Shown one piece after another: positions 1,649-63,556 of a stretch of DNA of 64,000 nucleotides. The stretch comes from Parasphingopyxis algicola (GTDB lineage: Bacteria; Pseudomonadota; Alphaproteobacteria; Sphingomonadales; Sphingomonadaceae). Position 1 is the first letter of the stretch, and each line of letters opens with the position of its first letter. A program made the translations under genes and the position numbers. The stretch covers positions 3,298,501 to 3,362,500 of the forward strand of contig NZ_CP051131.1 of the NCBI RefSeq assembly GCF_013378075.1, written 5' to 3'. The notes below the pieces were generated by a model. That model saw nothing but the letters and a program-made list of their open reading frames with translations. It was not told where the DNA came from and ran no database searches.

Positions 1649-1836
1649 CCGCTTTCGGCCAATAGCGGGCAGATTGCAGTAGCCTCAAAGCAGTCTCGTA
1701 ATGAAGAAAAAGTTCGACATGGTATCAGATATGGCATTCGATTGAATTTATCGGGTAAAGTTATTATATTTCAGTAACTTGACTCGTTATTGTGAATTCC
1801 ACCCTCTCCGCCAAAAATTATTTAATAAAATCAATA
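1649..1836 (+). repeat. tRNA-Ser 3'-end fragment with element end, copy 1 (attachment-site-like)
   Basis: This lies in a 523-base gene-free stretch (1531-2053). The parts in order are an inverted repeat CCCGCT/AGCGGG (1648-1669), the box AAGAAAAAGTTCGACA (1704-1719), tandem boxes ATGGTAT and ATGGCAT 12 bases apart (1719-1737), and a serine-tRNA 3' end ending in CCACCCTCTCCGCCA at 1813. An AT-rich block AATAAAATCAATA follows at 1824-1836. No 5' half of a tRNA precedes it, and the T-arm part is already mutated (GTGAATTCC instead of TTCGAATCC). The layout matches an attR/attL junction of a tRNA-targeting integrative element. The remaining bases of the gap show no gene. Confidence 0.75.
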
Positions 1837-2053
1837 TCTTAGGTTTTATATGCTCAATGCTTCGCGGCGATTCACCAGCGGATAAATCAGATTGCTGATC
1901 CGGATCAGTCACGGGCTGCCGAATGAACTGAGCACGACCGACCAATCGGGCTATCTGCCAGCTCAGCATATGCATGCTTTGCGCCCATTGCCGACAATCC
2001 GATCAGCCACTTGCACCCCAAAAATGGCCAGTATGTTGAGTACATCGCGATAC

Positions 2054-3337
2054 TCAACCAAAAACGGGAGCGATGATTTTCCGTGTGATCCAGGGAATCA
2101 TCCGCCGTGCGCAGATGCGCGGTGGACGCGTTATCGGAACCGCACAGCTTTCAAGATCGTCGTGGCCGATCGCTTTGGCGAGCTCTTTCCCCAAACCGAA
2201 CGCCGCAATCGATCCGCTTCCGGAATATCCGAGCGGCGCGAGTAACCCCGGTGCCAATTCCAGAATCTGGACGACGCGACCCGGCACAACGTCCAGATAG
2301 CCGCTCCAGGCATGGTCCCATTCCGGCAAAGGCATGTCGGGATAATAGGCCTTGAGATGCCTCTCGAACCGGCTCGCAAGTTCGGTAAAGGATTGGTTGC
2401 TATTTGATGGATAAAGCATCGATCCGACGAGCCGGCCTGCGCCATCCTGCATGAGCCAGAAAAGCCGGAGCGGATGATTGCTGGCGATTGGCAATGCGCC
2501 CGTCATCAGCATGTTCGCAATCTCCGGCGCCGGTTTGGATGCGAAGACCATGAGCGGTATCTTGTACTGGCTGGCGGTCAGCTTGACGAAGGGATCGTCG
2601 CTATAAGCGCCCGTCGCGGCGATCGCGTAGCGCGCTTTCACCGAGCCCTCGCGCGATCTCACGCGCCAAAAACCGTTTTCCCGAGCAATCTCGGTAACGG
2701 CCGATCTTTCGTAAACTCCGGCACCGGCTCCGACGGCAAGTGAGGCCATCCCGCGGCAATAATTGACAGGGTTGAGTGTGCCGGCGTTGCGATAGATCGC
2801 CGCGTCGGAAAAGGCAGACGTTCCGGTCAGCGCAGAGACGTTTTCCGGCGAAACCTCGTCGATCGAAATGCCGAAGCGCCGCCATTGATCGGCGATCATG
2901 TGAAGCCGTTTGGCCAGCGCAGCGGACGGCGCGCACATTGCGACACCCGATTTCCGGAACTCGGGATCCAGCCGGTGCTCTTCGACGAACAGCGGAAATT
3001 CTCTGGAAGCGTCCGCAATCATCTGATTGAGCCGCCGACCTTTTTCCTTGCCGAGCACGCGCTCTACATCGTCAGGGCCGGGTCCTGGCCAGCCGGGTAT
3101 CCAGCCCGCCGCGTTGCGCCCCGACGCGCCAGCTGCGATGCAGCCCCGCTCGAGGAGGGCCACCGACTTCCCTGCTTTGGCCAAATGATATGCCGCGGAT
3201 AAACCGGTATATCCGCCTCCGATAACAACAACATCGGCGTCGATATCCCCGGCAAGGGGATCAGCGGCAAACTGCACGGACGCAGTGGTCGTCCATAAAG
3301 GCGTGGATCTGACAGGATCAGTCGAAAGGCTGTTCAC
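2054..3337 (-). CDS. FAD-dependent oxidoreductase, D-amino-acid oxidase (DAO) family
   Basis: The 427-residue protein has an N-terminal dinucleotide-binding fold: VVVIGGGYTGLSAA (Gly40, 42 and 45), then LLERGCIAAGASGRNAAG, which fits the FAD-ribose acid and the loop typical of the glycine oxidase / DadA / gamma-glutamylputrescine oxidase group. The C-terminal APLGYSGSG motif corresponds to the flavin-contacting segment of that family. Such enzymes oxidise secondary or primary amines, releasing an imine and reducing FAD. It is the last gene of a leftward operon after a Rieske oxygenase and two SRPBCC proteins, with a 55-base gap from the preceding gene. It could oxidise an amine intermediate or pass electrons; the substrate is not visible from sequence. 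Confidence 0.85.
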   Translation of the reverse strand: MNSLSTDPVRSTPLWTTTASVQFAADPLAGDIDADVVVIGGGYTGLSAAYHLAKAGKSVALLERGCIAAGASGRNAAGWIPGWPGPGPDDVERVLGKEKGRRLNQMIADASREFPLFVEEHRLDPEFRKSGVAMCAPSAALAKRLHMIADQWRRFGISIDEVSPENVSALTGTSAFSDAAIYRNAGTLNPVNYCRGMASLAVGAGAGVYERSAVTEIARENGFWRVRSREGSVKARYAIAATGAYSDDPFVKLTASQYKIPLMVFASKPAPEIANMLMTGALPIASNHPLRLFWLMQDGAGRLVGSMLYPSNSNQSFTELASRFERHLKAYYPDMPLPEWDHAWSGYLDVVPGRVVQILELAPGLLAPLGYSGSGSIAAFGLGKELAKAIGHDDLESCAVPITRPPRICARRMIPWITRKIIAPVFG

Positions 3338-3392
3338 GCGCTGCCCTCCGGATTGTCGGCCGTATCGCCGGCTTGGACATCGCGGTCACGTG

Positions 3393-3842
3393 TCAGCTCG
3401 CCGGTTCGGCCAGATATTCCCGAATGCGCGCGACATCCATCAGGCAATGGGTGATGAAGATATTGCGGCACTCTTCGTCCGAAATGTCGACCGGTGTTAT
3501 GTCCACGGTGAATTTTATCGCGCAGGCATCGGGGCCACAGGGCGTCACCCTGATCTCGCCCTTATAGTCGGTCCATGGCAGTGGACCGTTGTCCGGCATG
3601 CAATATTCGTAGAACATCCTGTCCGTATCGATCGAAACAAGCTCCTCGGCGATGAAACCGCCGCCGAGCCGCTCCTTGTTGACTTCGAATATCCGCCGCG
3701 CGCCGACACCGTCTCCTTCGAAACGAACATTTTCCATCTGGCCCGGTATCGGCATCAAGGCTTCGCAGCCTTTCCAGTTGACCAGCGCCCAGACCTTGCT
3801 GGCCGGCGCCTCAATGCGCTTGGCGATAATTGCCTGAACCAT
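3393..3842 (-). CDS. SRPBCC-fold (START/Bet v1-like) small protein
   Basis: The 149-residue protein opens with MVQAIIAKRIEAPASKVWALVNW, the characteristic first strand and helix of polyketide cyclase / SRPBCC proteins, and keeps the family length. No enzyme residues can be assigned with confidence. The fold forms a hydrophobic cavity for aromatic or sterol-like ligands. It sits 15 bases downstream of the Rieske oxygenase gene. A second SRPBCC gene lies directly upstream of that oxygenase, so the oxygenase is bracketed by two related putative ligand-binding proteins. It might act as a cyclase, hydratase or substrate carrier; which of these cannot be decided here. Confidence 0.85.
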   Translation of the reverse strand: MVQAIIAKRIEAPASKVWALVNWKGCEALMPIPGQMENVRFEGDGVGARRIFEVNKERLGGGFIAEELVSIDTDRMFYEYCMPDNGPLPWTDYKGEIRVTPCGPDACAIKFTVDITPVDISDEECRNIFITHCLMDVARIREYLAEPAS

Positions 3843-3857
3843 TGGCCTTGCAACCTC

Positions 3858-4892
3858 CTATTTGATGAACGGTCCGGATGCGTGACTACGCGGATAGGCG
3901 CGCAGGAATTTCAGATACCGGCTAAGCGTCGTATCGCCTTTGGTCAGGGTTCCGGGCCGATAATGTATGGTGTTCAATATGTCGCTGTCTTCGCCGACCG
4001 TGCGGTGCATCAGCGCTTCGGCTGTTTCGAAACGCTCCTCCACGAGACTTTCGTCCTCGACATTTTCCAATGCGAGAACCGCAAATACCTCATGTTTGCC
4101 AACGACCGGCAATCCAAAGCCGACCAGTCCACCGATCCAGAAATCGCCATAGGGGCCTTCCTGCCAAAAGAGCGATGTTCCGCGAATACCGAGTGTCCAT
4201 TCAATCGGAATACCCTTTTGATGCGCGGCGATGATCTTGTAGCGAAAACCCCAGTCGTCCCAATCAACGTTCGCATGCGGGTCGTCGATCGCAAATTGCG
4301 CACCATGGACCGCCTTGAAATGCTGCATGTCCGGCGTGTTCGCCGCAAAGACCCAGGGATCGCAGTTGAAATAGTCCGGGAACCGGTATGACCGGAACGT
4401 GATCTTGTCGTCCGGCACTTCGAATTCGGGTATGTTCCAATGCGGCTTTTCGCCGTTGAACACCCATATGATTCCGTAACATTCCTGGGTCGGAAATTTG
4501 AACAGCCGCGCCTTTTTCGGCGCAGGATCGCCGATAAAAGTCTTCACGCATGTTCCCGAGCCGTCATATTCCCAAAGGTGGAAGGCACATTGGACGTTAT
4601 TGCCCACCACGGCGCCAACGCTGAGATCGGCGCCGACATGAGGGCAATAGGCGCTCATCGCGCGAGCAACGCCATCCTCGCCGCGGAAAATGATGATCTT
4701 GCCGTCGAGGAATGTTTCGCCCCTGATCTGACCGGCTTGCACTTCCGAAGACAGGCAGACCGGGTACCAGGATTCCGCAAAGACCCCGTTCTCGCCTTCC
4801 GCCGGCAGCAAGGTGCCCAGCCGCGTGTCCGGATTGCCGTTTGGCAACTCAATCTCACTGCGCACGGCCGGGGATGATGTTGATTGCGTCAC
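3858..4892 (-). CDS. Rieske non-heme iron oxygenase, catalytic subunit
   Basis: The 344-residue protein carries a complete [2Fe-2S] Rieske site: Cys83 and His85 in CPHVGADL, and Cys102 and His105 in CAFHLWEYDG, with the usual 17-residue spacing. The mononuclear iron motif follows as Asn185, Asp188, His191 and His196 (NTPDMQHFKAVH). The length and single-subunit build fit the KshA / vanillate-demethylase type of monooxygenase or demethylase rather than two-subunit ring dioxygenases. These enzymes need a ferredoxin or ferredoxin-reductase; none is encoded in module A, so one must come from elsewhere. Its ATG overlaps the stop of the upstream SRPBCC gene by four bases, indicating translational coupling. 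Confidence 0.93.
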   Translation of the reverse strand: MTQSTSSPAVRSEIELPNGNPDTRLGTLLPAEGENGVFAESWYPVCLSSEVQAGQIRGETFLDGKIIIFRGEDGVARAMSAYCPHVGADLSVGAVVGNNVQCAFHLWEYDGSGTCVKTFIGDPAPKKARLFKFPTQECYGIIWVFNGEKPHWNIPEFEVPDDKITFRSYRFPDYFNCDPWVFAANTPDMQHFKAVHGAQFAIDDPHANVDWDDWGFRYKIIAAHQKGIPIEWTLGIRGTSLFWQEGPYGDFWIGGLVGFGLPVVGKHEVFAVLALENVEDESLVEERFETAEALMHRTVGEDSDILNTIHYRPGTLTKGDTTLSRYLKFLRAYPRSHASGPFIK

Positions 4893-5374
4893 GGGCAGTC
4901 CTTTCTGGCTTCTGAAGACGGGTTATCTGCCGGCTCGTCTTTTACGAGGCGCCGCATATTGCCTTCTAACACATTGAGAATAGCGAGCGATCGCTGTCTG
5001 AATTCTTCGGCATCGCCAGCCGGTGCGGTGTAGCGGTTCGTCCAGATCACCGATGTCGAACGAGGCCCGGTCGGTATCGCGTGCGCGGACCCATAATAGT
5101 CGTCGAAGGGCATCGGTCCATAATCGAGGATTTCATAAGCATAGTAACAGCCGCTCTCGTCTCGCGCGGCTTGTCGCTCGACGATGGTGCCGCCGCCAAA
5201 TTCCTCGGCGATATGCAGGGTCCGGACGGCGCCGACCTCATTGCCATCGCCAACAAGTTCACGCACGAAGCCCTTACCCAATTCGGAGTGCGCGAAGTCT
5301 CCCAAAATCGCCCACACGCGATCGACCGGTGCATCTATGATATGGGTTGCGTGGAGGAAAACCTGCTCTCGCAT
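4889..5374 (-). CDS. SRPBCC-fold small protein, second copy
   Basis: A 161-residue reading starting MREQVFLHATHIIDAPVDRVWAILGDF has the SRPBCC N-terminus and length. The frame stays open further upstream, but that extension overlaps the receptor gene antisense to nothing useful and has a low-quality, arginine-rich composition, so the ATG at 5374 is chosen. It is encoded eight bases after the TonB receptor and overlaps the Rieske gene by four bases. It differs clearly from the SRPBCC gene at 3393-3842 (for example GFVRELVGDGNEVGAVR against the other's IPGQMENVRFEGDGVGARR), so the two are old paralogues rather than a recent duplication. Confidence 0.82.
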   Translation of the reverse strand: MREQVFLHATHIIDAPVDRVWAILGDFAHSELGKGFVRELVGDGNEVGAVRTLHIAEEFGGGTIVERQAARDESGCYYAYEILDYGPMPFDDYYGSAHAIPTGPRSTSVIWTNRYTAPAGDAEEFRQRSLAILNVLEGNMRRLVKDEPADNPSSEARKDCP

Positions 5375-5382
5375 CCCGATGC

Positions 5383-7701
5383 TCAAAACCTCGCGCTTAC
5401 ACTCACGCCCCATTCGCGGGGGCGGCCATAGCTGACATCGGTGGTACCGAGCGTGTCGGCCTGGCTCAGGCCATTGGTAATGTAGAGTTCGTCGCCGATG
5501 TTGGTCCCGAAAACGGCCAGCTCCCAACTTTCGTCCGACGGCCCAAAGGCAAGGCGGGCATTGAAAACACCATAGCCCGATTGTTCGAGCAGCGGATTGT
5601 TGTCGGCGACGTGCTGGACGGTGGATCGGTAGGCGTAGTCGCCACGTATTGTGAGTTGCCAATCGTCTGAGAGGTCCGCTGTATATTCGGCACCGAGCGA
5701 AAGGCTCCACTCCGGCGTTTTGACGAGATCATCGCTCAAGGTGATCGTATTGACGCTGGCGTCCAGCTGCCGGTACTCCGCGTCGAGATAGCCGAGGCCG
5801 GCATCGAAGCGCAGACCCGGAACAGGCATTGCCGTCAACTCCAACTCAAAGCCCATGATCCGTGCTTTGCCGGCGTTTTCTACCAGGGCGACGATCCCAC
5901 CTTGCGGATCCGAGGTGATGCTCAACAGCTGCAAGTTGGAATAGTCGCTGTAAAACGCAGCGCCGTTGAGAATGACGCGGCGGTCGGCGAACATCGAGTT
6001 GAAACCCAGCTCATAGGTCCAGACGAATTCCGGGGCGAAGGGCGTTCGCGCGACAAATTCGGTGGTTGGCCGACCGTTGAAGCCACCCGATTTGAACCCG
6101 CGCGCCACCGACGCATAGGTCATCAGATCGTCCGACCAATCATATTCGACGCCGATTCTGGGTGTCCATGCGTTCCAGCTATCTCCGGTTTCCACGTCGT
6201 GCGTCGTCACGCCGGCCGAAAGGCGATCGAAGCGGGAATCGAAATCTTTCTCGTCCGATGTGTATCGCAAGCCGCCGGAAACGCTGAGCCGGTCAGTGAT
6301 GTCGAAGCTGAAATGGCCATAAGCCGAATAGCTGTCATTGTTGATCCGGGATGTGAGCAGCCCGTCGAAATCAAGCGCCGGGTGGATCGGATTCCCCGCG
6401 CCACCAAGACCTGGGATGATCCCCGGCGGCAGTGCTTCCAGCGCGTCGAAAAGCCCCGGTGCGAAGACGACTCGATATTGATCGAAACCGCTTTCATGGA
6501 AATACATCGCGCCGACGATCCAATCGAGCCGATCGTCGATGGCCGTGCCCGATATCTGCAATTCTTGCGAGAACTGTTCCTGTTCGTCGAGAACCGACTG
6601 CTCGAAATATCGGATCGGTGAATGGTCAGAGTCTGCCCCAAATACCGCATCCTGCTCCCGATAGGCGGTTATCGACTTGATCGTGACAGCGCCGAGCTCG
6701 AGGGTAGCCGTGGAGGAAATGCCCCACAGGTCCAGATCGCTCTGATTGAACCCCGTACCGAAGCTGACGAACGGATCGCTTGAGATGAACCGGTCATCGT
6801 AAATCGTCCCCAGTGCCGGCGCGACAAGCCCGTTATAGAGCCCGATGAGGCTGCCGGACTGATCGACATCGATCAGCGTATTGGCGATGCTGTCCTCGCG
6901 CTTTCGCGTATAATCGGCGGCGACAAGAATATCGAAATTGGGAGAGGGCTTCCAAAGCAGCTGTCCGCGCAATCCTGTTGAATTGATGCCGCCCAGTCTC
7001 GTCCCGTCATTGACACGCCGGACGTAGCCATCCCGATCCCGCGATGAAAAGGCGACGCTCGCGAGCAGAGTGTCCGTGACAAGCGGAAGGTTCACCGAAC
7101 CACCAATGTCCACACGATCGAAAGATCCATATGTTGCGGAAACCCGACCGCCAAACTCCGGTTGCGGACGCCGCGTGACGATATTCACCGCACCGCCGAC
7201 ACTGTTCTTTCCGAAGAGCGTTCCTTGGGGTCCGCGAAGAACCTCTACCCGTTCGAGATCGACCAGATCCATGATCGAGCCGATCGAGCGCGGCAGATAC
7301 ACGCCATCGACATAGATGCCGACGCCGGGCTCGGTCGTGAACAGGAAATCGGCCTGGCCAATGCCGCGGATGTAGATCTGCGACGACGTGCTGCCGCCTG
7401 TGTTGCCAGTGCCTTGGTCGAAAACGAGGTTCGGCGTGAAATCGCCGATACCTGAGAGGTTGGAAATGCCGCGGTCGACCAGTGCGTCCGCATCGAATGT
7501 CGTTATCGAAATCGGCGTTTCCTGAAGCGTTTCCTCGCGCCTGCGCGCGGTAACGACAATCGCGCCAAATCCGCTTTGGGCTTGTGTACCATCGGCTTCT
7601 GCTTGCGCCTGGAGCGGCTGGGCAAAAGCGGCCAGCGGCCCCAGCATCGCTGCATGCAGGAGAAGCCGTTTTCTTGCTCGTCCATAACCCATCATCGCCA
7701 C
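5383..7701 (-). CDS. TonB-dependent outer-membrane receptor (module A)
   Basis: The 772-residue protein has a signal peptide (LLLHAAMLGPLAAFAQPLQAQA) and a plug domain starting GAIVVTARRREETLQETPISITTF, with the hallmark VEVLRGPQGTLFGKNSVGGAVNIVTRRP near residue 140. A long beta-barrel ends in an aromatic-terminated strand (WGVSVSARF). It would import a substrate across the outer membrane using TonB-ExbBD energy. In sphingomonads this receptor class is commonly linked to organic substrates rather than only iron. It is the first gene of the leftward operon that ends with the FAD oxidoreductase, so its ligand is probably the substrate of the Rieske pathway. An AT-rich inverted repeat lies 53 bases upstream. 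Confidence 0.94.
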   Translation of the reverse strand: MAMMGYGRARKRLLLHAAMLGPLAAFAQPLQAQAEADGTQAQSGFGAIVVTARRREETLQETPISITTFDADALVDRGISNLSGIGDFTPNLVFDQGTGNTGGSTSSQIYIRGIGQADFLFTTEPGVGIYVDGVYLPRSIGSIMDLVDLERVEVLRGPQGTLFGKNSVGGAVNIVTRRPQPEFGGRVSATYGSFDRVDIGGSVNLPLVTDTLLASVAFSSRDRDGYVRRVNDGTRLGGINSTGLRGQLLWKPSPNFDILVAADYTRKREDSIANTLIDVDQSGSLIGLYNGLVAPALGTIYDDRFISSDPFVSFGTGFNQSDLDLWGISSTATLELGAVTIKSITAYREQDAVFGADSDHSPIRYFEQSVLDEQEQFSQELQISGTAIDDRLDWIVGAMYFHESGFDQYRVVFAPGLFDALEALPPGIIPGLGGAGNPIHPALDFDGLLTSRINNDSYSAYGHFSFDITDRLSVSGGLRYTSDEKDFDSRFDRLSAGVTTHDVETGDSWNAWTPRIGVEYDWSDDLMTYASVARGFKSGGFNGRPTTEFVARTPFAPEFVWTYELGFNSMFADRRVILNGAAFYSDYSNLQLLSITSDPQGGIVALVENAGKARIMGFELELTAMPVPGLRFDAGLGYLDAEYRQLDASVNTITLSDDLVKTPEWSLSLGAEYTADLSDDWQLTIRGDYAYRSTVQHVADNNPLLEQSGYGVFNARLAFGPSDESWELAVFGTNIGDELYITNGLSQADTLGTTDVSYGRPREWGVSVSARF

Positions 7702-7753
7702 CCCATTTTAGATCGTCGATCGAGCGCCGACGAATCAGAATATCTGTGGCTAG

Positions 7754-7771
7754 ATTATATTTTTATATAAT
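7754..7771. promoter_or_regulatory. AT-rich inverted repeat upstream of the module A receptor operon
   Basis: ATTATAT-TTTT-ATATAAT is a perfect 7+7 inverted repeat with a four-base spacer in the 129-base gap between the receptor start and the TetR stop. The gap is very AT-rich compared with its surroundings. The centre resembles the inner palindrome of the TetR/RidA intergenic region (ATTCTA-TTTA-TAGAAT), so both could be targets of the same TetR repressor. It could also simply be the AT-rich core of a promoter. Confidence 0.45.
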
Positions 7772-7830
7772 TATGTCAAATATTATATTTTTGCACGTTG
7801 ATCGAAAGACTGGCCGGTGTTCGGACGCGG

Positions 7831-8457
7831 TTACTCCGTATCTTGAGTTTCCCAGCATTCGAACATCACACGCAATCTGCGCTGCATGTTCACGATCATC
7901 TCCTCGTAATGCATCTCGCCTCGGGCGGCCAAATAGTCCTCGAAATGCGAAATCAGGAGCATGTACAAGAGCGCCACGACATCATCGAAATCCAGTGAAT
8001 CCGGGAAAACACCCTGTTCTGCGAGCTTTTCAAGAAGCTCTCGCAATTGACGTTTCTTTACGCGCTCAAACGCGGTTTTGATATCGTCCAGGGCTGAGTC
8101 GGCACGATCCGTCGAATAGGCATCGAAGGCAGCCAGGATGTTGAGCGATTTCCAGTCATCGCTAAAGCGATACGCCTCGAAAATGGCGGCAACGGCATCC
8201 ACTCCCCTTTTTGGCGGGCTCGCAATGATACGTGCGGCTTTCTCTTCCATATGATCGACAATTGGCAGCATCAGGGCGCTTAAAACCCCACCCTTTGAGC
8301 CAAAATAGGAATAGAGGGTACCGACGCTCACATCGGCCGCTCCGGCGATCTCGTCGATCGTCGTCTGGCTATATCCATTTTTCCGAATTAGCGCTTCCGC
8401 CGCCGATAATATGGTCTGGCGGCGCTTCTGCTTGGAACGCTCACGAAGCCCGGTCAC
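7831..8457 (-). CDS. TetR/AcrR-family transcriptional regulator (module A)
   Basis: The 208-residue protein carries the TetR helix-turn-helix at about residues 12-60 (RQTILSAAEALIRKNGY, TTIDEIAGAADVSVGTLYSYFGSK). A variable helical ligand-binding domain follows, with no further recognisable motif. It lies between the receptor operon, which runs the same way downstream of it, and the divergent RidA-E1-lipoyl genes. Its own upstream gap holds a long imperfect palindrome (8522-8575), a good candidate for its operator and for control of both directions. The ligand is probably an intermediate of module A. Confidence 0.9.
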   Translation of the reverse strand: MTGLRERSKQKRRQTILSAAEALIRKNGYSQTTIDEIAGAADVSVGTLYSYFGSKGGVLSALMLPIVDHMEEKAARIIASPPKRGVDAVAAIFEAYRFSDDWKSLNILAAFDAYSTDRADSALDDIKTAFERVKKRQLRELLEKLAEQGVFPDSLDFDDVVALLYMLLISHFEDYLAARGEMHYEEMIVNMQRRLRVMFECWETQDTE

Positions 8458-8521
8458 GATTATCTCCTGTCGGTTGCCCCTTACCAGAGGCGGGGGCAGT
8501 CACGAAAGCCCAAAATCATAA

Positions 8522-8575
8522 ATGAAATATTCTTATTGCGATTCTATTTATAGAATTATAATAGGAATGTTTCAT
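8522..8575. promoter_or_regulatory. Nested palindromes between divergent tetR and ridA-like genes (candidate operator)
   Basis: The outer arms ATGAAATATTCTTATT (8522-8537) and AATAGGAATGTTTCAT (8560-8575) are inverted copies matching at 14 of 16 positions. Nested inside is the perfect inverted repeat ATTCTA-TTTA-TAGAAT (8541-8556). The whole lies in the 132-base gap between the TetR start (8457, minus) and the RidA-like start (8590, plus). Divergent TetR genes commonly bind such repeats and repress both promoters. No other function is suggested by the sequence. Confidence 0.6.
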
Positions 8576-8589
8576 TTGGAGGGTGGCAC

Positions 8590-8976
8590 ATGCATTTGGA
8601 ACGCGTTCATGTCTCAGACGATGCAGAGAGACAATTGGGATTTTCGCAGGCGGTCAAGGTTGGCGAGACCCTCTGGGTTTCCGGGGCGGTAAGCTGGGAT
8701 GAAAACCTGAATCCGCTCCACGTCGGCGACATGGTCGGCCAGATGCGCCAGATATACGGCGCATTGGGCGAACTGCTCAAGCGCTTCGATCGGGGCATGG
8801 ATGCGATCGTCAAAGAGACGGTCTTTGCGACCGATCTCGATCTAGCGTTAAAGAACACGGAAGTTCGTCGCGATTTTTTCCCCGACGACAAGTTTCCCGC
8901 CTCGACCTGGGTCGAGGTTAAGCGGCTGGCCCATCCGGACCTTCTGCTTGAGGTCGAGATCGTCGCCCAGCTCTGA
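8590..8976 (+). CDS. RidA/YjgF/YER057c/UK114-family protein
   Basis: The 128-residue protein has the family's length and pattern (GETLWVSGAVSWDENLN, MRQIYGALGELLKRF, FPASTWVEVKRLAHPDLLLEVEIVA). RidA enzymes hydrolyse reactive enamine/imine intermediates and need an arginine in the segment P-A-R-S-x-V. Here that position is Ser105 (PASTWV), so classical imine deaminase activity is doubtful; many catabolic paralogues lack the arginine. A role linked to the imine-producing FAD oxidoreductase of the same module is attractive but not shown. It starts the rightward transcription unit with the E1 and lipoyl genes. Confidence 0.88.
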   Translation: MHLERVHVSDDAERQLGFSQAVKVGETLWVSGAVSWDENLNPLHVGDMVGQMRQIYGALGELLKRFDRGMDAIVKETVFATDLDLALKNTEVRRDFFPDDKFPASTWVEVKRLAHPDLLLEVEIVAQL

Positions 8977-16827: not shown

Positions 16828-16828
16828 C

Positions 16829-57157: not shown

Positions 57158-57195
57158 TATATGTCTCCCCTGAGTCATTCTGTCGTTGGGGCGGC

Positions 57196-57936
57196 TCAGC
57201 CCTGAAAGGTTGCGAGGCCGGCCATGCTTTTCGGTCCCGGCTTGGGATAGGTCTTGCTCGAATGTGTGAGGCCGGCTTTGACCAATGCCTGGGCGACACA
57301 GACCGTCGCCGGAACGGGATCGATCACAGGCACGCTGTACCCGCGGCTTTCCAGCCGTTCGGTGATCGCGTCGGCGCATCCCAGAAAACCGGTGCAACCA
57401 AGCACGATCACATCGGCGCCATCCTGTTCGACCGCCGCGAGCGCGATCTCGGCGAGACAATCCTGAACCTCGGCGATGCGTTGCTCGATCTCGAGCACGG
57501 GAATGTTGATAACGCGGATCGAGGCGAGTTTGTCATGCACGGCATAAACCCGCGCGAGATCGTCAAGCAGCGGCCTCACGCTGTCGAGCACGGTCACGAT
57601 GCTGAACTTGTGCCCGAGCATCGCAGCCAGATGCATCGATGTTTCGGCCGGACCCAGCACCGGTATGCGGACGAGCTCGCGCGCGGCCTTGAGGCCCGGA
57701 TCGCCCATGCAATCGATGATCACGGCGTCCGCTCCCGATTCTTCAGCGGCTAGCGCAGCTTGCATGATCCCGGGAACGGCCAGCGCCTCATCTACTTCGG
57801 ATTCGATCGAGCTTGGGCCCTTTTCGAGCAGCGAATGCGTAAAATGCAGATCCTTGCCGGCAAGCGGCGCGACGTCGTCGAGGCTGCGAATGCCTTCGGT
57901 GATGACCGGGGTGATGATGTGAATCGTGGCGGTCAT
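57196..57936 (-). CDS. Asp/Glu/hydantoin racemase-family protein
   Basis: The 246-residue protein has the two catalytic cysteines of cofactor-independent racemases: Cys76 in IIDCMGDPG and Cys181 in VLGCTGFLG, plus the GPAETSMHLAAMLGHKFSIVTVL central segment. The family includes hydantoin, aspartate and glutamate racemases and maleate isomerases. It overlaps the DUF917 gene by four bases and stands with a HyuA protein, which points to inversion of a chiral amide, hydantoin or carboxylic acid. Substrate not determined. Confidence 0.9.
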   Translation of the reverse strand: MTATIHIITPVITEGIRSLDDVAPLAGKDLHFTHSLLEKGPSSIESEVDEALAVPGIMQAALAAEESGADAVIIDCMGDPGLKAARELVRIPVLGPAETSMHLAAMLGHKFSIVTVLDSVRPLLDDLARVYAVHDKLASIRVINIPVLEIEQRIAEVQDCLAEIALAAVEQDGADVIVLGCTGFLGCADAITERLESRGYSVPVIDPVPATVCVAQALVKAGLTHSSKTYPKPGPKSMAGLATFQG

Positions 57937-59036
57937 GAGCGTTGCTCCTTTTGGTTCAGTGCCTCGATCGGGACAAAAGCCTCCTCCGATCCGAAGGCGG
58001 CCGGCCCCATGAATTCAAGCGCTTCGGGCGCCCGCAACCGGCCCGGCGCGCCGCAGCCGATTACGGCCACGCGCTGGCCGTAGCGCAGGCTTTCGGTCGG
58101 GATCGGCATGGCCGTTTCCCGGTCGACGATGCAGATCAGGTCGGGCACGATCGCCTTCAGCTCGCCATCGACGACGATCGAGATATTCTCGTTTTGAAAG
58201 CCGATCTCGGCGCCGCCGTCGCCGTCGAGCGCGGCAAGTGTGCAGCTACCGAATACCCAGCCGGCCGAAGTGTCGCGCGAGATGTCGGTAACCTTGCCGT
58301 CGAACAGCCGATAGGCGCTGCCATAGCCCTCCAGCCCGTCCAGCGCCGTCAACAGACGGTCGACCGGATGCGCGTCGCCCTCGCGGATGGCTTTCCCAAC
58401 CGCAATCGCCGCGCTCACCGTGGCCGGCAGCGCTGCGCGCTTCGCTTCGGCACCCGTCATCGGATAGCAGGACAGGCTGACGCTCGCTCCCATCGCGGCG
58501 ACCAGGGGGCGCGCAAGTTCCTCGGCCTTGCGGGCATTCTCAGCCTCTATGATCGCGACATTGCCGTGTTCATCGGCAATCGCCAGCGGCGTGCAGCTGA
58601 CGCCTGCAACATTGAAATTGATCATGTGAATCGAAGGAAAAGCGCGGCCCATGCCATCGGCGTCGATGAGGGGAAGGCCGCGGCTCGCAGCATAGGCGAC
58701 CGGCATCACCGAATTCAGTCCGCCGATTTCGGCCGATATGATCATGTCGGCGCTCCGCCCTAGGGCTTTCTCCAGGGCCGACACCGCGCGGTGCGCGTCT
58801 TCGACGGCGTAGAGCTTCTCTATCATGACGGTCGGGGCACCCATCGCCGCCGCGACGAACACATCGGCATCGTCGGGCACGTCTTCGAGCGCTGCCAACT
58901 TGACCGCGCCATGATGCGCAATGGCTTCCTTGCAGAGCAGCGATCCCACATACGGGTCGCCGCCGCCGCCGGTCCCTAGAAACGCCGAGCCGATCGCGAG
59001 ATCATCAATATCGACCTGCGCTATAACATCAGCCAT
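57933..59036 (-). CDS. DUF917-family protein
   Basis: The 367-residue protein has the family's N-terminal glycine motif FLGTGGGGDPYVGS, then MGAPTVMIEKL, SAEIGGLNSVMPVAYAASRGLPLIDADGMGRAFPSIHMINF, and a C-terminal VIGCGAPGRLRAPEALE. DUF917 proteins are regularly encoded next to short HyuA-like proteins; their reaction is, to my knowledge, not established. The ATG at 59036 overlaps the HyuA stop by eight bases, and the racemase follows with a four-base overlap, so the three are tightly coupled. The longer frame upstream is out-of-frame HyuA sequence. Confidence 0.88.
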   Translation of the reverse strand: MADVIAQVDIDDLAIGSAFLGTGGGGDPYVGSLLCKEAIAHHGAVKLAALEDVPDDADVFVAAAMGAPTVMIEKLYAVEDAHRAVSALEKALGRSADMIISAEIGGLNSVMPVAYAASRGLPLIDADGMGRAFPSIHMINFNVAGVSCTPLAIADEHGNVAIIEAENARKAEELARPLVAAMGASVSLSCYPMTGAEAKRAALPATVSAAIAVGKAIREGDAHPVDRLLTALDGLEGYGSAYRLFDGKVTDISRDTSAGWVFGSCTLAALDGDGGAEIGFQNENISIVVDGELKAIVPDLICIVDRETAMPIPTESLRYGQRVAVIGCGAPGRLRAPEALEFMGPAAFGSEEAFVPIEALNQKEQRS

Positions 59037-60600
59037 GGCTGGCCTCCTCGAACGCACCGAGATTGCCAACCGCACGGCAAACGACCCGTGTTGCACCGCC
59101 AGGAAGATATTGCAGCGGAAATTCCTCGACCTCGACGATCTCGACTGAAGCTTCGCGGGCGCCGGCCGCAACCGCCTGTTGCACGGCGAGCTCGCGTGCT
59201 TCGCACAGCATGGCGTCGCGTACACCGCTTTCCATATTATAGATGCGGTCGATCTCGCCGCTGACTTGGCCAATGGCGGCGCCGACCGCGTTCGCGACCT
59301 CGGCGCCTTCAGGCCGGTGGACCTCGTTCACCCCCCTGATATCGCCCGCCACAAGCACCGCCCCGCCGCCGACAAGTATCAAGGGAACCGCTGTCTTGCT
59401 CGTCTTCATACGATCAATGCCGTTCTCGATCATGCCGGTGATGAGAGCCGCGGCGTCGGCGACCGCCGCTGCGGGAAGTCCATCGACGCGCGACCGATCG
59501 CCAAAATCCGCGTTACCCGCCGCCACCGCGATGTCACTCGCCGTGAGGATGGACCCGCCGAAGACGAGCGCGTCCCGGTGCAATCTGTTGCCAACGGAAT
59601 CGGGCCCGATAGCAAGCGATGCCGGATCGCCGATGTCGCGTACGCGGCTGCCGCCGCCCAGCCCGAGCGAGAGGATGTCAGGCATACGGAAATTCGTCCG
59701 GACCCCGCCAATGTCGACATGCATGCTCGACTGGCGCGGAAATCCGTCCATAAGCACGCCGATATCGGTCGTCGTGCCGCCGATATCGGCGACCAAGGCG
59801 TTGGAGAGTCCGGCTAGAAGGGCCGCGCCGCGAAGCGAATTGGTCGGTCCCGCGGCAAAGGTACGCACCGGATAGCGGTGCATATGCGCAACGCTCATCA
59901 ACGTGCCGTCATTCTGACTGATGAAGAATGGCGCATCGATACCGAGTGCGTGCAGCGCCTGCGCAAAGGCATCGGCGACATGGGCGGCAAGCGTTTTGAG
60001 GCTCGCATTCATGATGGCCGCGTTTTCGCGTTCGAGCAGCCCGATCCGTCCGACCTCGCTCGACAGAGTAATATCGGCTTCGGGCATACAATCCCGGACG
60101 ATTTCGGCGGCGCGTTCCTCGTGGCTGGCGTTGAGCTGGCTGAAGACCCCGGAGATGGCGATATGCGTCACACCCGAAGCGCGAATGCCCTTCGCACATT
60201 CAGCCACCGCTGTTTCGTCGAGTGCCGCTATGGGCTGGCCAGTGAATTCGAAGCCACCGCGCACGACATGCCTGCCGCCGTCGACCGCGTCCGACAGTGC
60301 CTTAGGCCAGCCAGCGAGTGGCGGAATTCCTCGTGCCGCCGGAAAGCCTATCCGGATCGTGGCGACGCGATTCAACGTTTGCGCCTGAACAAAGGCGTTG
60401 GTGAACTGGGTCGTGCCGATCATGACGCTGCGTATCGATTCGGGCCTGCACTGGCTTTTCGTGAGCAGCGCACCGATCGCCTCCCGAATACCGCCACTGA
60501 TATCGTCGGATGTCGCGCGTTTTTCGAAACTCTGGACGTCGCGACCGGACATCAGCACGGCATCAGTGTTGGTCCCTCCGACATCTACTCCGATATGCAT
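59029..60600 (-). CDS. Short HyuA-type hydantoinase/oxoprolinase-family protein
   Basis: The 523-residue protein begins MHIGVDVGGTNTDAVLMSGRDV after GAAGGAGG and has MIGTTQFTNAFVQ, the phosphate motif ALVADIGGTTTDIGVLMDGFP and GLGGGSRVRDIGDPASLAIGPDSVG. It is about 100-200 residues shorter than the carboxylase HyuA proteins of module C because the C-terminal domain is missing, as is usual for the DUF917-linked subgroup. No HyuB gene accompanies it. It is the first gene of a leftward unit (HyuA-DUF917-racemase-receptor), preceded by palindromic site 4. Confidence 0.88.
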   Translation of the reverse strand: MHIGVDVGGTNTDAVLMSGRDVQSFEKRATSDDISGGIREAIGALLTKSQCRPESIRSVMIGTTQFTNAFVQAQTLNRVATIRIGFPAARGIPPLAGWPKALSDAVDGGRHVVRGGFEFTGQPIAALDETAVAECAKGIRASGVTHIAISGVFSQLNASHEERAAEIVRDCMPEADITLSSEVGRIGLLERENAAIMNASLKTLAAHVADAFAQALHALGIDAPFFISQNDGTLMSVAHMHRYPVRTFAAGPTNSLRGAALLAGLSNALVADIGGTTTDIGVLMDGFPRQSSMHVDIGGVRTNFRMPDILSLGLGGGSRVRDIGDPASLAIGPDSVGNRLHRDALVFGGSILTASDIAVAAGNADFGDRSRVDGLPAAAVADAAALITGMIENGIDRMKTSKTAVPLILVGGGAVLVAGDIRGVNEVHRPEGAEVANAVGAAIGQVSGEIDRIYNMESGVRDAMLCEARELAVQQAVAAGAREASVEIVEVEEFPLQYLPGGATRVVCRAVGNLGAFEEASHG

Positions 60601-60677
60601 GGATACGTCGCCTCCTTCACCGACAAGAGAGCGGGCGAGGCTGCCGGGCACAAACCATTATCTTAGTAGGATGCGGT

Positions 60678-60691
60678 ATACTGCCTAGTAG
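60678..60691. promoter_or_regulatory. ATACT-N4-AGTAG palindrome, module D site 4
   Basis: ATACT-GCCT-AGTAG lies 78 bases upstream of the short HyuA gene, inside the 139-base gap after the MalT-like regulator. It has the same spacer length as sites 1-3 and a TATACT overlap like site 3. It links the racemase half of module D to the BVMO half through a common putative operator. Confidence 0.55.
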
Positions 60692-60721
60692 GTATAACTT
60701 ATGGAAGTGATGGAAGGATGC

Positions 60722-60738
60722 TACTAGATCATGTAGTA
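60722..60738. promoter_or_regulatory. TACTA-N7-TAGTA inverted repeat next to the MalT-like regulator stop
   Basis: TACTA (60722-60726) and TAGTA (60734-60738) are perfect arms around GATCATG, immediately downstream of the regulator stop and about 120 bases upstream of the HyuA start. It could be a second operator for the HyuA unit; it is too weak in GC to be a good terminator. Confidence 0.35.
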
Positions 60739-60739
60739 T

Positions 60740-63196
60740 CTAATGCGGTTCGGCGTGTTTCGCCTTGGCCAGCGCGTCGACCCGGTCGTGCACACGCAGT
60801 TTTCTATAGATGTTTTTCAGGTGGAATCGGACGCCATGTTCACTGATACCGAGCCTGCGTCCCACGACTTTGTCCGAACCACCTTGCTCCAGCGCGTCAA
60901 GGACTTCGCGCTCGCGTGGCGTAAAGACCGCTCCATTCACTCGCGTTTCTTGATCCCCGAACCACCGGCGCAGTGAACCGAACAGTTTGGCGTGATCGTC
61001 TTGACCTGGAGGCTCGTCCAGACGCGCCCGTATTCGCGAGGCGACCGGGTCTCCGCCGAATTCTGCAAATGCGCGGCTAAATCCGTGCCTCGATCCGATC
61101 CCCAGGGCTCGCTCAAAACGACGATCGGCCGCGTCGCTTTCGCCGATCCGATCGTGCGCCGCAACCAGCAACAGCAAGCCTCGTAATTCACTGCGACGCA
61201 GCTTGCGCTGTGCGGACCGTTCGACGAATTCGTCCAGCCTGGCGCACGCCTCCTTAGTTTCACCTGCGGCGAGCAGCGCATAGCCGTTCGACAAGGCGAT
61301 CAGCTCGCTGGCCTGCCAGGCAACTACGGCGTCGGGCACATTGACCGCCGTCGGAGGCTCGGTGCCGTCCTCCCCGCGCAACCATGCCTCGCCGGACAGA
61401 CAATTGCCGACATCCCTCACAAAGTCGGCGACCCGCCCCAAATCCTGCGCGCGGAGCTGCTCTTTTTGCGCGTCAAGCGCCGCAAGCGTTGAGGATAGAC
61501 CGATCTCGGCGGCCAACAGCCGCGCATAGGGCTCATAGGCTGCAGAATAGACGTCAAACCAAGCTTCGCTTTGCGGCATTCGGTGCGCGGATTTGCGTAA
61601 ATGCGAACGCGCGCTCGAGAGGCGGCCAGTCTCGAATTCGAGATAGGCGGTGATGGCGTGGAGCACGGTCTCCACCCCGGCATCCTTGGGGAATTTCTTG
61701 CGGAAAGATCGCTGCGCGCCCTTCAACATCGCGCGCGCGGTCGCAATCTCGCCGCGTGCCAACTCGATATTGGCGCGGTGAATGTCGAGAAACATCAGAT
61801 TGTAATCCGAGCCGGCGTCGCGCGAATAGCCGACCGCCTCGGCAAAATAGCCGAGCGCACGATCAAGGTCGCCCGACTGTGTCCGCAATATGCAGCGCAG
61901 AGTCGTAATATAGGCTTTCCAGGCCGGATCGTCATTGTTGCGCAAAACGATACGATTAAACGGCTCCAGGTCGCTCTCACTCGCCGCCCGGCAGCCATAT
62001 ATCAGGATCGTCGTGCGAATAACCTCCGCATCGCGCAGTCCGTCCGGATCTCCTTCAAGCAATGGCAGGCTTTCGGCGAGCAGGGCTTCGGCCTCCGCGA
62101 TCCGTCCTTCTTTCAGATGAATGACGCATTGGAGTAGCCTGAACCGCGGCTCTTCCGCCAATTCCAACGGTGCGGCGCGATCGACGAGTAGCTTGATGAC
62201 ATCGAAGCCGCCGGTGACCCACAATTTCAATCCCTGCGCTCGCCGCAAATACTCGCTGCTCGCGCTTCCGCCGCCGGACTGGATGGCGAGCGATGCCGCC
62301 TCGGGAATGCGTCCCGCCGCGTCGCAGGCCAGTGAGGCGTGTGCCATGATCGCTTGTCGATCGATCCGAGGCAGCATATCGAAGCGGCGCTGGAGGTGCT
62401 GTTTTAGGAGCGGGTAGACATGCAGCTCGTCTTCCTTCCAGATGACTAACCCCTCCAATCTCATGGCAATGTCGGGAAGCAGCGTGCCAAGAACGTCATC
62501 GGGGCTGACCGCATTGAGCATCTCACTGCTGCATCCGTCCAACAGGCTCGTCATCATCAACGCACGAACCCAGTCGGCTGGCAGATCCGAGAGCACCTCC
62601 TGTTCAATATAGGCGCCGATGCCAGATTGAGCGATAAACTGGCCCCTTTTATCCAGCCGGTTGCGGGGCCGGGCTAGCCAGTCGGTCAGCGTTCGCACCG
62701 CGGCAGGCCAGCCTTGTGCCCAGTGCGCAATTTTAATCGCCGCAGCACGCCCGACTGCGCCCTGGCACTGGCGGATTATCTGTTTCCGTTCGATGCGCAA
62801 TTCGTCGACGCCGATCAGCTGGACCCCGCCTTCCATTCGTAGGCGCGCGATCGGCAGGTTGAACAGATCACGGGCTGCTATGACCGCGCTGCCGGAGCGG
62901 CTTTCCAGTACGCGCGTTAGCAATCCCGGATCGGCGAAATCCGCTATGAACGCATGCGGTTCGTCAAGGAGCAAGATATGGTCCGACGGTGCCTTCGCCA
63001 TCAGGTCGAGCAATGTCACATGTCCTGCGAACTGGCTTGCCTTATAACAAACGCATGGCACTTTCGACAGCCGTGCGAAAGTCTCGAGCAGGCTGGTCTT
63101 GCCGTACCCGGCCGGAGCATGAACGATCGAACAGCGCGCACTGTGGAGGCTCGCGGCCAACTCCGTCTTGTCGAATTCTAGTCCACGCCAATCCAT
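60740..63196 (-). CDS. MalT-like LuxR-family ATP-dependent transcriptional activator (module D)
   Basis: The 818-residue protein has a STAND ATPase (Walker A APAGYGKTSLL at 27-37, Walker B ILLLDE at 74-79), a long helical repeat region, and a C-terminal LuxR helix-turn-helix (VFTPREREVLDALEQGGSDKVVGRRLGISEHGVRFHLKNIYRKL). It resembles the module C regulator in build but diverges throughout, so it is not a recent copy. It runs in the same direction as, and just upstream of, the HyuA-DUF917-racemase-receptor unit and is its probable activator. Both MalT-type regulators in the window stand next to HyuA-family operons. Confidence 0.92.
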   Translation of the reverse strand: MDWRGLEFDKTELAASLHSARCSIVHAPAGYGKTSLLETFARLSKVPCVCYKASQFAGHVTLLDLMAKAPSDHILLLDEPHAFIADFADPGLLTRVLESRSGSAVIAARDLFNLPIARLRMEGGVQLIGVDELRIERKQIIRQCQGAVGRAAAIKIAHWAQGWPAAVRTLTDWLARPRNRLDKRGQFIAQSGIGAYIEQEVLSDLPADWVRALMMTSLLDGCSSEMLNAVSPDDVLGTLLPDIAMRLEGLVIWKEDELHVYPLLKQHLQRRFDMLPRIDRQAIMAHASLACDAAGRIPEAASLAIQSGGGSASSEYLRRAQGLKLWVTGGFDVIKLLVDRAAPLELAEEPRFRLLQCVIHLKEGRIAEAEALLAESLPLLEGDPDGLRDAEVIRTTILIYGCRAASESDLEPFNRIVLRNNDDPAWKAYITTLRCILRTQSGDLDRALGYFAEAVGYSRDAGSDYNLMFLDIHRANIELARGEIATARAMLKGAQRSFRKKFPKDAGVETVLHAITAYLEFETGRLSSARSHLRKSAHRMPQSEAWFDVYSAAYEPYARLLAAEIGLSSTLAALDAQKEQLRAQDLGRVADFVRDVGNCLSGEAWLRGEDGTEPPTAVNVPDAVVAWQASELIALSNGYALLAAGETKEACARLDEFVERSAQRKLRRSELRGLLLLVAAHDRIGESDAADRRFERALGIGSRHGFSRAFAEFGGDPVASRIRARLDEPPGQDDHAKLFGSLRRWFGDQETRVNGAVFTPREREVLDALEQGGSDKVVGRRLGISEHGVRFHLKNIYRKLRVHDRVDALAKAKHAEPH

Positions 63197-63390
63197 TCGT
63201 TTTCGATGCTAGCGAATTTGCAACTGCAATGGCAAATTGGCGGTTGAGCCGTGATGTGTCCGCTGGCGAATATGGCGTGGAAGCGATTTCCCTTATGGCT
63301 GGACGTTCGTGTCCACTGACTTGAATGTCCGCTATGGCTCGGTAGCCGAACGGCGGATTTCTCACCTTGGAAGTCCAAAAACCGGACAGG

Positions 63391-63556
63391 CCGCTTCCGG
63401 CCGTAAGCGGACTTGTTCGGAAATGGCCGGAAGCGGTCACATCGTGAAGAAAAAGTTCGACGTGGTATTAAACATGGTATTCGACTGACAATTTCACGAA
63501 TAGTTTTTATACTTCAATGACTTGCTTGCCCATTGCGAATCCCGCCCTCGCCGCCA
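63391..63556 (+). repeat. tRNA-Ser 3'-end fragment with element end, copy 5 (probable outer right end)
   Basis: Within the 593-base gene-free stretch 63197-63789, a hairpin CCGCTT/AAGCGG (63391-63410) is followed by AAGCGGTCACATCGTGAAG and AAAAAGTTCGAC. Boxes GTGGTAT and ATGGTAT, 12 bases apart, start at 63462, and the tRNA part CGAATCCCGCC-CTCGCCGCCA ends at 63556; box-to-end is 94 bases. Unlike copies 1-3, no AATAAAATCAA block follows. The next gene is a sodium/calcium exchanger, so this copy may be the outer border of the whole array. The remaining bases show no gene. Confidence 0.72.

Follow-up and report, generated by a model that had tools for sequence, protein, structure and literature searches.

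An array of integrase-less gene modules behind a tRNA-Ser gene of Parasphingopyxis algicola, likely assembled by serial integration

Background

How does a chromosome come to carry five 3' ends of a serine tRNA gene, one behind the other and each without its 5' half, with blocks of catabolic genes between them? The question is raised by a stretch of 64,000 nucleotides of Parasphingopyxis algicola, which we call the window (G000:C1:3298501-3362500 of the single-contig genome G000, 3,669,801 bases). An initial annotation had proposed that the blocks are single-purpose catabolic modules without an integrase of their own, moved in trans by an integrase that acts at tRNA-Ser. In our opinion it is likely that the window is the right part of a longer tandem array of islands, which target the gene for tRNA-Ser(CGA), were integrated serially, and are integrase-less, being either similar to cis-mobilizable elements (CIMEs) or otherwise non-autonomous.

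Array layout

The 14-nt tRNA-Ser end CACCCTCTCCGCCA occurs, with at most two mismatches, five times in the window, ending at 1813, 11895, 26214, 43147 and 63556 and always on the + strand. Shuffled windows hold 0.45 copies on average and none of 100 shuffles reaches five, while ARAGORN finds no tRNA gene in the window; on these grounds the annotated 3' ends, their single orientation and the absence of 5' halves are borne out. A composite test that requires a 23-nt core (at most three mismatches) and the arms described below (at most one mismatch) returns four sites in the window and none in 20 block-shuffled windows. The site ending at 43147 is an outlier, with one base of the core deleted, two mismatches in the arms and no conserved right half, the spacing being unchanged.

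An intact tRNA-Ser(CGA) gene with the same 3' end is called by ARAGORN at G000:3180044-3180132, 118 kb left of the window, and heads the array, as integration at a tRNA-Ser 3' end had led one to expect. Three more copies left of the window end at 3269596, 3288420 and 3292982; in genome numbering those of the window end at 3300313, 3310395, 3324714, 3341647 and 3362056. The array thus totals eight sites, all on the + strand, over 182 kb behind tRNA-Ser(CGA). Between them lie seven modules of 18.8, 4.6, 7.3, 10.1, 14.3, 16.9 and 20.4 kb, the last four being the blocks first put at 10, 14, 17 and 20 kb. Tested as a tRNA-integrated genomic island, the locus presents an intact target gene followed by eight fragments in the same orientation, and a second gene, tRNA-Ser(GGA), is followed by one. 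The modules have a G+C content of 0.54-0.61, except module C with 0.653; two flanking stretches have 0.643-0.655. A further ARAGORN call, tRNA-Ser(GCT) at 3278078-3278151, was rejected as false, as it is 74 nt long and lies inside a called gene (3277776-3278744). Right of the array there is a very long open frame of 2740 amino acids (G000:C1:3370472-3378694).

Attachment sites

The repeat reaches well beyond the tRNA end: leftwards it includes a pair of arms and in part continues to -164, and at some sites it runs rightwards as far as about +135. Seven sites can be aligned over about 145 nt, and the model built from them (R1) finds 13 places in the genome. The arms, TGGTATnnnnnnTGGYAT, stand upstream of the core; among the ten own-genome sites measured they are perfect at seven, have one mismatch at two and two mismatches at one, and in all ten exactly 76 nt separate the end of the second arm from the CCA end. 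Within the array, seven of the eight sites have perfect arms. At three true tRNA-Ser genes taken as controls the arm pattern is reached with five to seven mismatches, that is, the arms are absent from all three. The distance from arm to CCA end is 75, 77 and 76 nt at three sites in G236, a sister species of the same genus, 74 nt in G115, which belongs to another genus, and 76 nt in a contig labelled Chlorobiaceae, whose site came from a scan pattern that allowed 29 spacings.

Two weak sites with changed cores, at 3181.8 and 359.5 kb, have arms with two and one mismatches, respectively, and the same 53-nt gap to TTCGAAT. They also have the core variant GAGTTCGAATGCTGCGCTATC in common, and the second of them (359534-359639) lies just downstream of a P4-type integrase gene at 358 kb. 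A lone att-like site with no tRNA near it is found at G000:C1:398642-398750.

A match to the consensus of integration host factor (IHF), WATCAANNNNTTR as quoted from PMC7581858, sits 13-15 nt right of the CCA end. Within 45 nt of the core the consensus is matched perfectly at six of 16 sites (four of the eight array sites, the tRNA side of the element at tRNA-Ser(GGA), and one site of G236), with one mismatch at 3288420 and with two at 3292982. By comparison, the frequency of perfect matches is 0.09% in background windows, and of eight flanks that were shuffled 0.03 on average have one. On the left side of the core, five of 13 arm-bearing sites show an IHF-like match with no more than one mismatch (background 0.5%), the other eight having two or three. 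The order of arms, IHF-like site, core and IHF site is that of the attP of lambda-type tyrosine integrases, in which arm-type repeats stand at a fixed distance from the core, here 76 nt; that the putative arms and IHF sites bind proteins is what their sequence suggests.

The ends of the modules are partly alike. The right halves (160 nt) of the modules that start at 3269596, 3288420, 3292982 and 3310395 align with one another and with that of the G236 module at 36652 with z of 25 to 91; the likeness is weaker (z 3 to 15) for 3300313 and the tRNA-Ser(GGA) element. The right flanks of 3324714, 3341647 and 3362056 stay at z of 3.1 or below with those modules and with each other; the flank of the intact tRNA-Ser(CGA) gene compares with the right half of 3324714 at z 4.8. 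On the outer left side (-230 to -115) many pairs are alike, with z up to 10, among 3288420, 3292982, 3300313, 3310395, 3362056 and one G236 site, and no such likeness is seen at 3269596, 3324714, 3341647, the tRNA-Ser(GGA) element and G236 77758. The similarity of the ends stops where the cargo starts.

A hairpin, CCGCTTT..AAAGCGG, occurs at six distinct places in 300 kb, in five cases offset from a core by +109/+110 or -164/-211. Four of the eight array cores have it nearby (at G000 3269705, 3288530, 3292818 and 3292771 and at the window position given in Table 1), and it stands at both ends of one module only, the 4.6-kb one (3288420-3292982). A terminator, a factor site and a boundary are all candidates for what it may be. 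As to the two halves, attL and attR, that CIMEs keep, the modules from 3269596, 3288420, 3300313 and 3310395 have a near-side IHF match with zero or one mismatch together with perfect far arms; the tRNA-Ser(GGA) element likewise keeps both (one mismatch in the arms), and in each of the other three array modules one half is degenerate.

Table 1. Attachment sites and modules of the window (window positions; gene families by Pfam)
Feature	Position	Strand	Components
Hairpin, outer left of att site 1	1649-1668		CCGCTTTCGGCCAATAGCGG
Att site 1	1720..1841	+	arms TGGTATCAGATATGGCAT 1720-1737; core 1791-1813, 3 mismatches; IHF-consensus match 1829-1841
Module A	1814..11795		10.1 kb core to core; FAD oxidoreductase, Rieske oxygenase, two cyclase-like proteins, L-PSP/RidA-like protein; TonB receptor 5383-7647; TetR 7831-8457; E1 dehydrogenase/transketolase 9033-11063
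Att site 2	11802..11921	+	arms TGGTATTAAACGTGGTAT 11802-11819; core 11873-11895; IHF-consensus match 11909-11921
Module B	11896..26115		14.3 kb; SnoaL-like protein, CoA-transferase pair, two enoyl-CoA hydratases, SDR, thiolase-like protein, AMP-dependent ligase, acyl-CoA dehydrogenase; AraC regulator 18334-19326; TonB receptor 23693-25909
Att site 3	26121..26241	+	arms TGGTATCAAACATGGCAT 26121-26138; core 26192-26214; IHF-consensus match 26229-26241; right-half similarity otherwise absent
Module C	26215..43046		16.9 kb; oxidoreductase of the alcohol dehydrogenase (ADH) family, thiolase, AMP-dependent (CoA) ligase, 245-amino-acid protein without Pfam match; MalT/LuxR-type regulator 28804-31434; two hydantoinase A, acetone-carboxylase gamma and hydantoinase B genes; TonB receptor 40728-42968
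Att site 4, off-type	43054..43147	+	arms TGGTATTTCTTGTGGTGC 43054-43071, 2 mismatches; left IHF-consensus match 43104-43116; core end 43147
Module D	43148..63456		20.4 kb; two clusters, D1 and D2
D1	43256-54877		flavin monooxygenase (FMO)-like protein, CoA-transferase III, Fe-ADH, TetR 48076-48753, ligase, TonB receptor, metallo-hydrolase, P450
D2	54974-63196		TonB receptor, Asp/Glu racemase, S-Me-THD, hydantoinase A, MalT/LuxR-type regulator
Att site 5, last of the array	63463..63556	+	arms TGGTATTAAACATGGTAT 63463-63480; core 63534-63556, 3 mismatches; no right half after it

Related sites at a second tRNA gene and in other genomes

A lone element of 4.65 kb stands at the tRNA-Ser(GGA) gene, from G000:C1:1869029-1869119 to 1873764 (L026:9029-13764). 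After the tRNA it has a right half with a perfect IHF match; at its far end there are arms with one mismatch and a core that ends at 1873764. At both ends the core is CACCCGCTCCGCCA, which is the variant of tRNA-Ser(GGA) itself. Reading of its frames gives a LytS-like kinase, a LytTR-like regulator and other genes, and none of the seven genes with a PF00589 domain in the genome lies in it. It is the smallest complete element of this type that we saw.

The sister species G236 has an independent array behind the same tRNA-Ser(CGA), whose three sites have positions 36652, 77758 and 98286 on the reversed contig. Its cargo consists of other catabolic genes, matches of the P. algicola array proteins there being 23-44% identical, and its contig has no PF00589 gene. 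The modules are, then, not fixed in relatives. The DNA left of tRNA-Ser(CGA) is conserved, at least partly, in ten of ten genomes of the genus. The seven right sides that were read share only the att repeats (P. algicola and G236), stretches of 160-261 bp, and one stretch of 1.8 kb that is common to G074 and G301 and lies far from the tRNA. In both G142 (9.8 kb) and G272 (9.9 kb) an island occupies the right side, equipped with a P4-like integrase and a displaced end of its own; beyond the island of G272 comes DNA that in other genomes is found left of the tRNA. Because the right sides differ in this way and islands sit there in two genomes, we regard tRNA-Ser(CGA) as an integration hot spot.

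The strict site pattern is found in two of 298 genomes of the family (P. algicola and G236). Model R1, at E up to 1e-8 and with stricter filters, is found in two of 159 (P. algicola and G115), a sample to which G236 possibly does not belong; within the genus it matches in five of ten genomes, in G074, G301 and G142 at tRNA genes only. Outside the family, the contig JAAXWX010000012.1 from a Chlorobiaceae metagenome-assembled genome (L035:2630-2726) has paired arms, 76-nt spacing and a tRNA-Ser core, and this contig, as labelled, may extend the arm geometry across phyla. No viral contig has the left-arm pattern. The right-arm pattern occurs in 12 viral stretches, six of which (L134, L138, L139, L140, L142 and L143) lie directly behind tRNA-Ser ends; five of these ends are called by ARAGORN, with two anticodons, L134 is cut by the end of its contig, and L140 equals L142 in sequence. 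L144 lies behind a tRNA-like end that ARAGORN does not call, and the remaining five stretches are not tRNA. A recognisable P4-type integrase is present in one of the seven contigs with tRNA ends, at the far end of the contig (L142). In the IMG/VR stretches L134, L138-L140, L142 and L143 the tRNA-Ser end is followed by AATAAAATCAATA, which resembles the IHF consensus, and by eye there are repeats spaced by 12 nt; perhaps they represent a widespread type of tRNA-Ser element.

Integrases

None of the seven PF00589 genes lies within 3150001-3410000. A profile of ten P4-type integrases was searched at maximum sensitivity against 3150001-3450000 and 100 kb of G236. Its sole match below E 0.1 is a relic at 3180299-3180570 (E 9e-4 and 0.038) beside tRNA-Ser(CGA), the decayed N-terminus of a P4-type integrase, broken by stops and frame changes; the array modules and the 100 kb of G236 hold none at that threshold. 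Weaker matches have E 0.47 (3175796-3176149), 1.9 (3391707-3391874) and 4.9 (3314063-3314404, on the opposite strand of a module B gene). The profile recovered the intact genes of G115 and of the 358-kb locus, both of which are members of the profile. An intact integrase near the array is therefore rejected by PF00589 and by the P4 profile. The claim that the modules lack an integrase stands as far as intact genes of the array are concerned and has to be amended by the relic; a search leftwards for a complete tRNA-Ser gene with an integrase next to it, which the annotation had suggested, does lead to the gene, where the integrase is present as this relic only. The array modules are in this respect CIME-like, having no integrase gene, and are not integrative and conjugative elements (ICEs) or integrative and mobilizable elements (IMEs), which have their own.

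Among 40 integrase sequences compared, the relic scores best with members of the clade of the G115 integrase. After the relic follows a pair of open frames for an Xre/MbcA antitoxin and a RES-domain protein (G000:C1:3180250-3181641, L013:10250-11641), a toxin-antitoxin pair that could stabilise the head of the array. G115 itself has a 42-kb island behind tRNA-Ser(CGA), with a P4-type integrase gene 153 bp after the tRNA. Its TGGTAT-type arms read TGGTATCGAGTATGGTAT next to the integrase and TGGTACCGAATATGGTAT at the opposite end of the island. Relatives of this integrase (E up to 1e-80) are found in 60 of 308 genomes of the family and in none of the seven genus genomes listed, P. algicola included. 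At 30 loci among the matches listed, on which the following counts rest, tRNA-Ser is just upstream in 23 (four anticodons), tRNA-Gln, tRNA-Met and tRNA-Lys in one each, and no tRNA was found in four. A looser arm pattern is seen at nine loci besides those with the strict one, once within the tRNA.

The genome's own integrase genes at 358556 and 1739138 are 91% identical over 1.76 kb; the 358556 copy has the P4-type domain order, and their arms are TGTGGTAAC/TGTGGGATC or TGTGGTAAC/TGTGGTATC. Because these arms and the core differ from those of the array, the two are weak candidates for an enzyme acting on it in trans. At the outer edge of both units (L031, L032) a reverse-strand tRNA-like 3' end, GTTCCCGTAGGGGTCACCA, can be recognised by eye.

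Cargo of the modules and its occurrence elsewhere

Genes were taken from our own gene calling and their families from Pfam, which was applied to the four modules of the window and to the modules 3269596-3288420 and 3292982-3300313. As had been annotated, each block of the window has at least one TonB receptor and at least one regulator (TetR in A, AraC in B, MalT/LuxR-type in C, TetR and MalT/LuxR-type in D). The cargo of module B is a beta-oxidation-like set with CoA transferases. Of the modules outside the window, 3269596-3288420 encodes a Rieske enzyme, a cycloisomerase-family protein, an intradiol dioxygenase, a dienelactone-hydrolase-family protein, an Fe-ADH and CoA-transferase subunits, with a LysR regulator and a TonB receptor; it resembles an aromatic intradiol (ortho-cleavage) pathway. 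The module 3292982-3300313 has a cyclase-domain protein and a resistance-nodulation-division (RND) efflux set, and hence not all cargo of the array is catabolic. The term 'single-purpose' suits modules A-C better than D, because D consists of two clusters that are distributed separately. The first cargo gene begins 109-393 bp from the core in six of the seven modules and 1317 bp from it in the 4.6-kb module.

Modules B, C and D were searched as DNA in 397 genomes of the family. Module C (E up to 1e-100) is found in three, P. algicola, G189 and G150. In the latter two, nine of its ten genes, the first and the last included, are present in the same order with 57-83% amino acid identity; for the tenth (245 amino acids) no match was reported, and a gap of similar size stands in its place. 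None of the neighbours that module C has in the P. algicola array continues the block in G189 or G150. At the edge of the G150 block there is a 47-nt 3' part of tRNA-Arg(CCG), identical at 39 of 47 positions, whose CCA end is 80 bp from the first gene. This part lies 236 bp from an intact tRNA-Arg(CCG) gene (G150:C2, L157/L158), so that the cargo of module C is seen there at a different tRNA address. Module B (E up to 1e-60) is likewise found in three genomes including P. algicola, strongly in G359 only and with one short match in G230. All 12 of its called genes are collinear in G359 (67-87% amino acid identity), in the region right of tRNA-Ser(GGA), and no tRNA-Ser fragments were found at the edges of that block. 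Module D has partial matches in 30 genomes, P. algicola included, its parts being distributed separately. None of the three matches in the nine other members of the genus listed. That the modules are units of presence and absence is thus seen for B and C as blocks, and not as blocks bounded by tRNA-Ser sites. The cargo clusters are coherent units of transfer that also occur without these ends.

A location of the modules on plasmids was also considered and rejected. The window was compared by megablast in three stretches; 1-25000 had no match, and the rest had only short gene-level matches of at most 4% of the query among the records listed (8 of 13; 2 of 2).

Discussion

Serial integration at tRNA-Ser explains the fixed geometry of the sites, their common orientation, the combination of partly shared ends with unrelated cargo, and the patchy distribution; it also explains the second insertion, at another tRNA-Ser gene and with the variant end of that gene. 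Each module would have come in when its attP recombined site-specifically with the 3' end of either tRNA-Ser or a resident module. For this a visiting element would have brought a P4-type tyrosine integrase (Arm-DNA-bind_3) specific for tRNA-Ser, and the same integrase could excise single modules or runs of them; the modules would in this sense be mobilised in trans. Since the att-bounded modules hold no working integrase, they probably arrived with an enzyme that was borrowed or has since been lost. The array is probably stable until a matching integrase arrives, as no close relative of the arm-matched integrase was detected in the genome.

Several observations weigh against this reading. The first 89.5 kb after tRNA-Ser(CGA) have a single, degenerate site (about 3181827-3181945). 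No excised circle was seen and no clean empty site was found among the seven right sides of tRNA-Ser(CGA), the DNA right of the last site of the array was not found beside the tRNA in relatives, and the DNA right of the tRNA-Ser(GGA) element matched nothing at the G236 locus. Some cores are mutated, and part of the array may be dead. Modules B and C are present in other genera without these att sites, and because of this the modules need not move as att-bounded units. As for the enzyme, the strict arm pattern stands upstream of the integrase at two of the 30 loci only, L179 (which is G115) and L185 (TGGTATAAAGCATGGCAT), and an IHF-type right half at none of the 23 tRNA-Ser loci (at least two mismatches at best everywhere). 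For these two reasons the members of the G115 clade are at most candidates for the cognate enzyme of the array. Other P4-like integrases beside tRNA-Ser genes of the genus (G142, G272, G074) have different arms. The partner enzyme is probably a P4-type integrase of tRNA-Ser, whatever its lineage.

If serial integration is accepted, there are two ways in which the modules may have come to be without integrase. They may once have been autonomous, as ICEs, IMEs or prophages, whose integrase and transfer genes were deleted later and whose att scars were left, as in CIME formation and accretion; we give such ordinary decay slightly less than an even chance. It would agree with the decayed P4-type integrase that still stands beside tRNA-Ser(CGA), with the integrase-bearing islands at the same tRNA-Ser(CGA) in G142, G272 and G115, and with PMC5704250, where the cited part gives it as the usual route. 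It is harder to reconcile with the lack of any integrase relic below E 0.1 in the modules or in 100 kb of G236, with cargo genes that begin so close to the core in six of seven modules, and with the five modules that have a similar right half (z 25-91), because of which some of the module ends are not very old. A dedicated non-autonomous family is the other way, possible in our view and rather doubtful: any cargo cluster could travel with a portable attP unit no longer than about 300 bp, to be stacked in trans by tRNA-Ser-specific P4-type integrases, much like integron cassette arrays that lack an integrase, or MITEs. The proposed unit (two arms, IHF-like site, tRNA-Ser core, IHF site, sometimes outer hairpins) is a composite of several sites, none of which is complete. 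Such a family would account for right halves that are alike across unrelated cargo, two species and, more weakly, two tRNA genes and that lose their likeness at the cargo, for five of six hairpins in 300 kb at fixed offsets from the core, and for modules without integrase relics. However, the hairpin is found at four of eight sites only and at both ends in the 4.6-kb module only, the outer left likeness holds among some sites and not at 3269596, 3324714, 3341647 or the tRNA-Ser(GGA) element, and no shared right half is present at sites 26214 and 43147. The likeness of the ends could also have come about by homologous recombination among them. The absence of relics together with the shared ends leans to an integrase that was never there; the relic beside the tRNA together with the known route leans to one that was lost.

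A more radical doubt is that the array is a fixed, dead relic whose cargo is swapped by homologous recombination between the repeats, with no integrase involved. The mutated cores speak for it, as do the seven listed genus genomes, P. algicola among them, without a relative of the G115 integrase (E up to 1e-80), and the cargo that other genera have without att ends. Nevertheless, the exact 76-nt spacing at ten own sites and the lone element at another tRNA gene, with the variant end of that tRNA, point to site-specific recombination, at least formerly, and we consider the relic array improbable. That the repeats are tRNA-like by chance or without function hardly deserves belief, given that none of 100 shuffles and none of 20 block shuffles reproduces them and that the arms are absent at three of three true tRNA genes. 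Serial integration of integrase-less modules remains the reading that we prefer.

It is known already that islands with repeats of a tRNA or tmRNA 3' end can stand in tandem without integration modules (the cited parts of PMC3146451 and PMC5704250). The nearest precedent is given by the ssrA islands of Dehalococcoides as PMC3146451 describes them: they lie in tandem downstream of one tmRNA gene within 100 kb, have 3'-end repeats and carry respiratory or catabolic genes; 15 of 31 have no integration module, and cis-mobilizable elements were suggested. According to the same account, their recombinase is a serine recombinase (DsiB), kept in sixteen islands, whereas the array described here uses tRNA-Ser, keeps an integrase in no module, and has attachment sites that, with their arms and IHF-like sequences, are of the type used by tyrosine integrases. 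CIMEs and accretion, as presented in PMC5704250, concern elements whose integration and transfer genes were lost; the modules, in which the integrase may have been lost or never present, are similar in that attL and attR are kept and elements stack in tandem at the target gene. In the route given there a functional element arrives next to a decayed one, while here we see a run of modules with common end structures and no functional partner. The fGI-2 islands of Methylophilaceae, in the portion of PMC10872708 that deals with them, are additive and vary in the number of repeats of the last 20 bp of tRNA-Lys, a high share of their cargo being of unknown function; that portion gives no anatomy of an attP. 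Tycheposons, for which the same source names a tyrosine recombinase together with cargo bordered by tRNA, differ from the array, in which there is no intact recombinase. The integron-derived attC clusters without integrase (CALINs), in the relevant part of PMC11389934, are arrays of cargo with recombination sites for which the integrase has to come from another place; they serve as an analogy only. In the open-licence literature of PubMed Central we found no title that concerns an array of tRNA-Ser modules in sphingomonads, which is a weak negative. What we regard as new is an array without any intact integrase, an attP anatomy that is resolved to the base and seen at two tRNA genes as well as in two species, and catabolic cargo of the array that recurs as blocks in other genera.

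Implications

The question of action in trans is testable, because the att site is defined to the base (arms, spacing and core, with IHF sites at several copies), because the family has a clade of tRNA-Ser integrases, one arm-matched member of which lies behind the same tRNA, and because the 4.65-kb element is available as a minimal natural substrate. If our reading is true, it would offer a concrete route by which pathways are gathered: ready modules, each with its own receptor and regulator, would come to one address without carrying any machinery. Should the modules indeed belong to a dedicated non-autonomous family, catabolic pathways would accumulate and be reshuffled in these bacteria like large cassettes.

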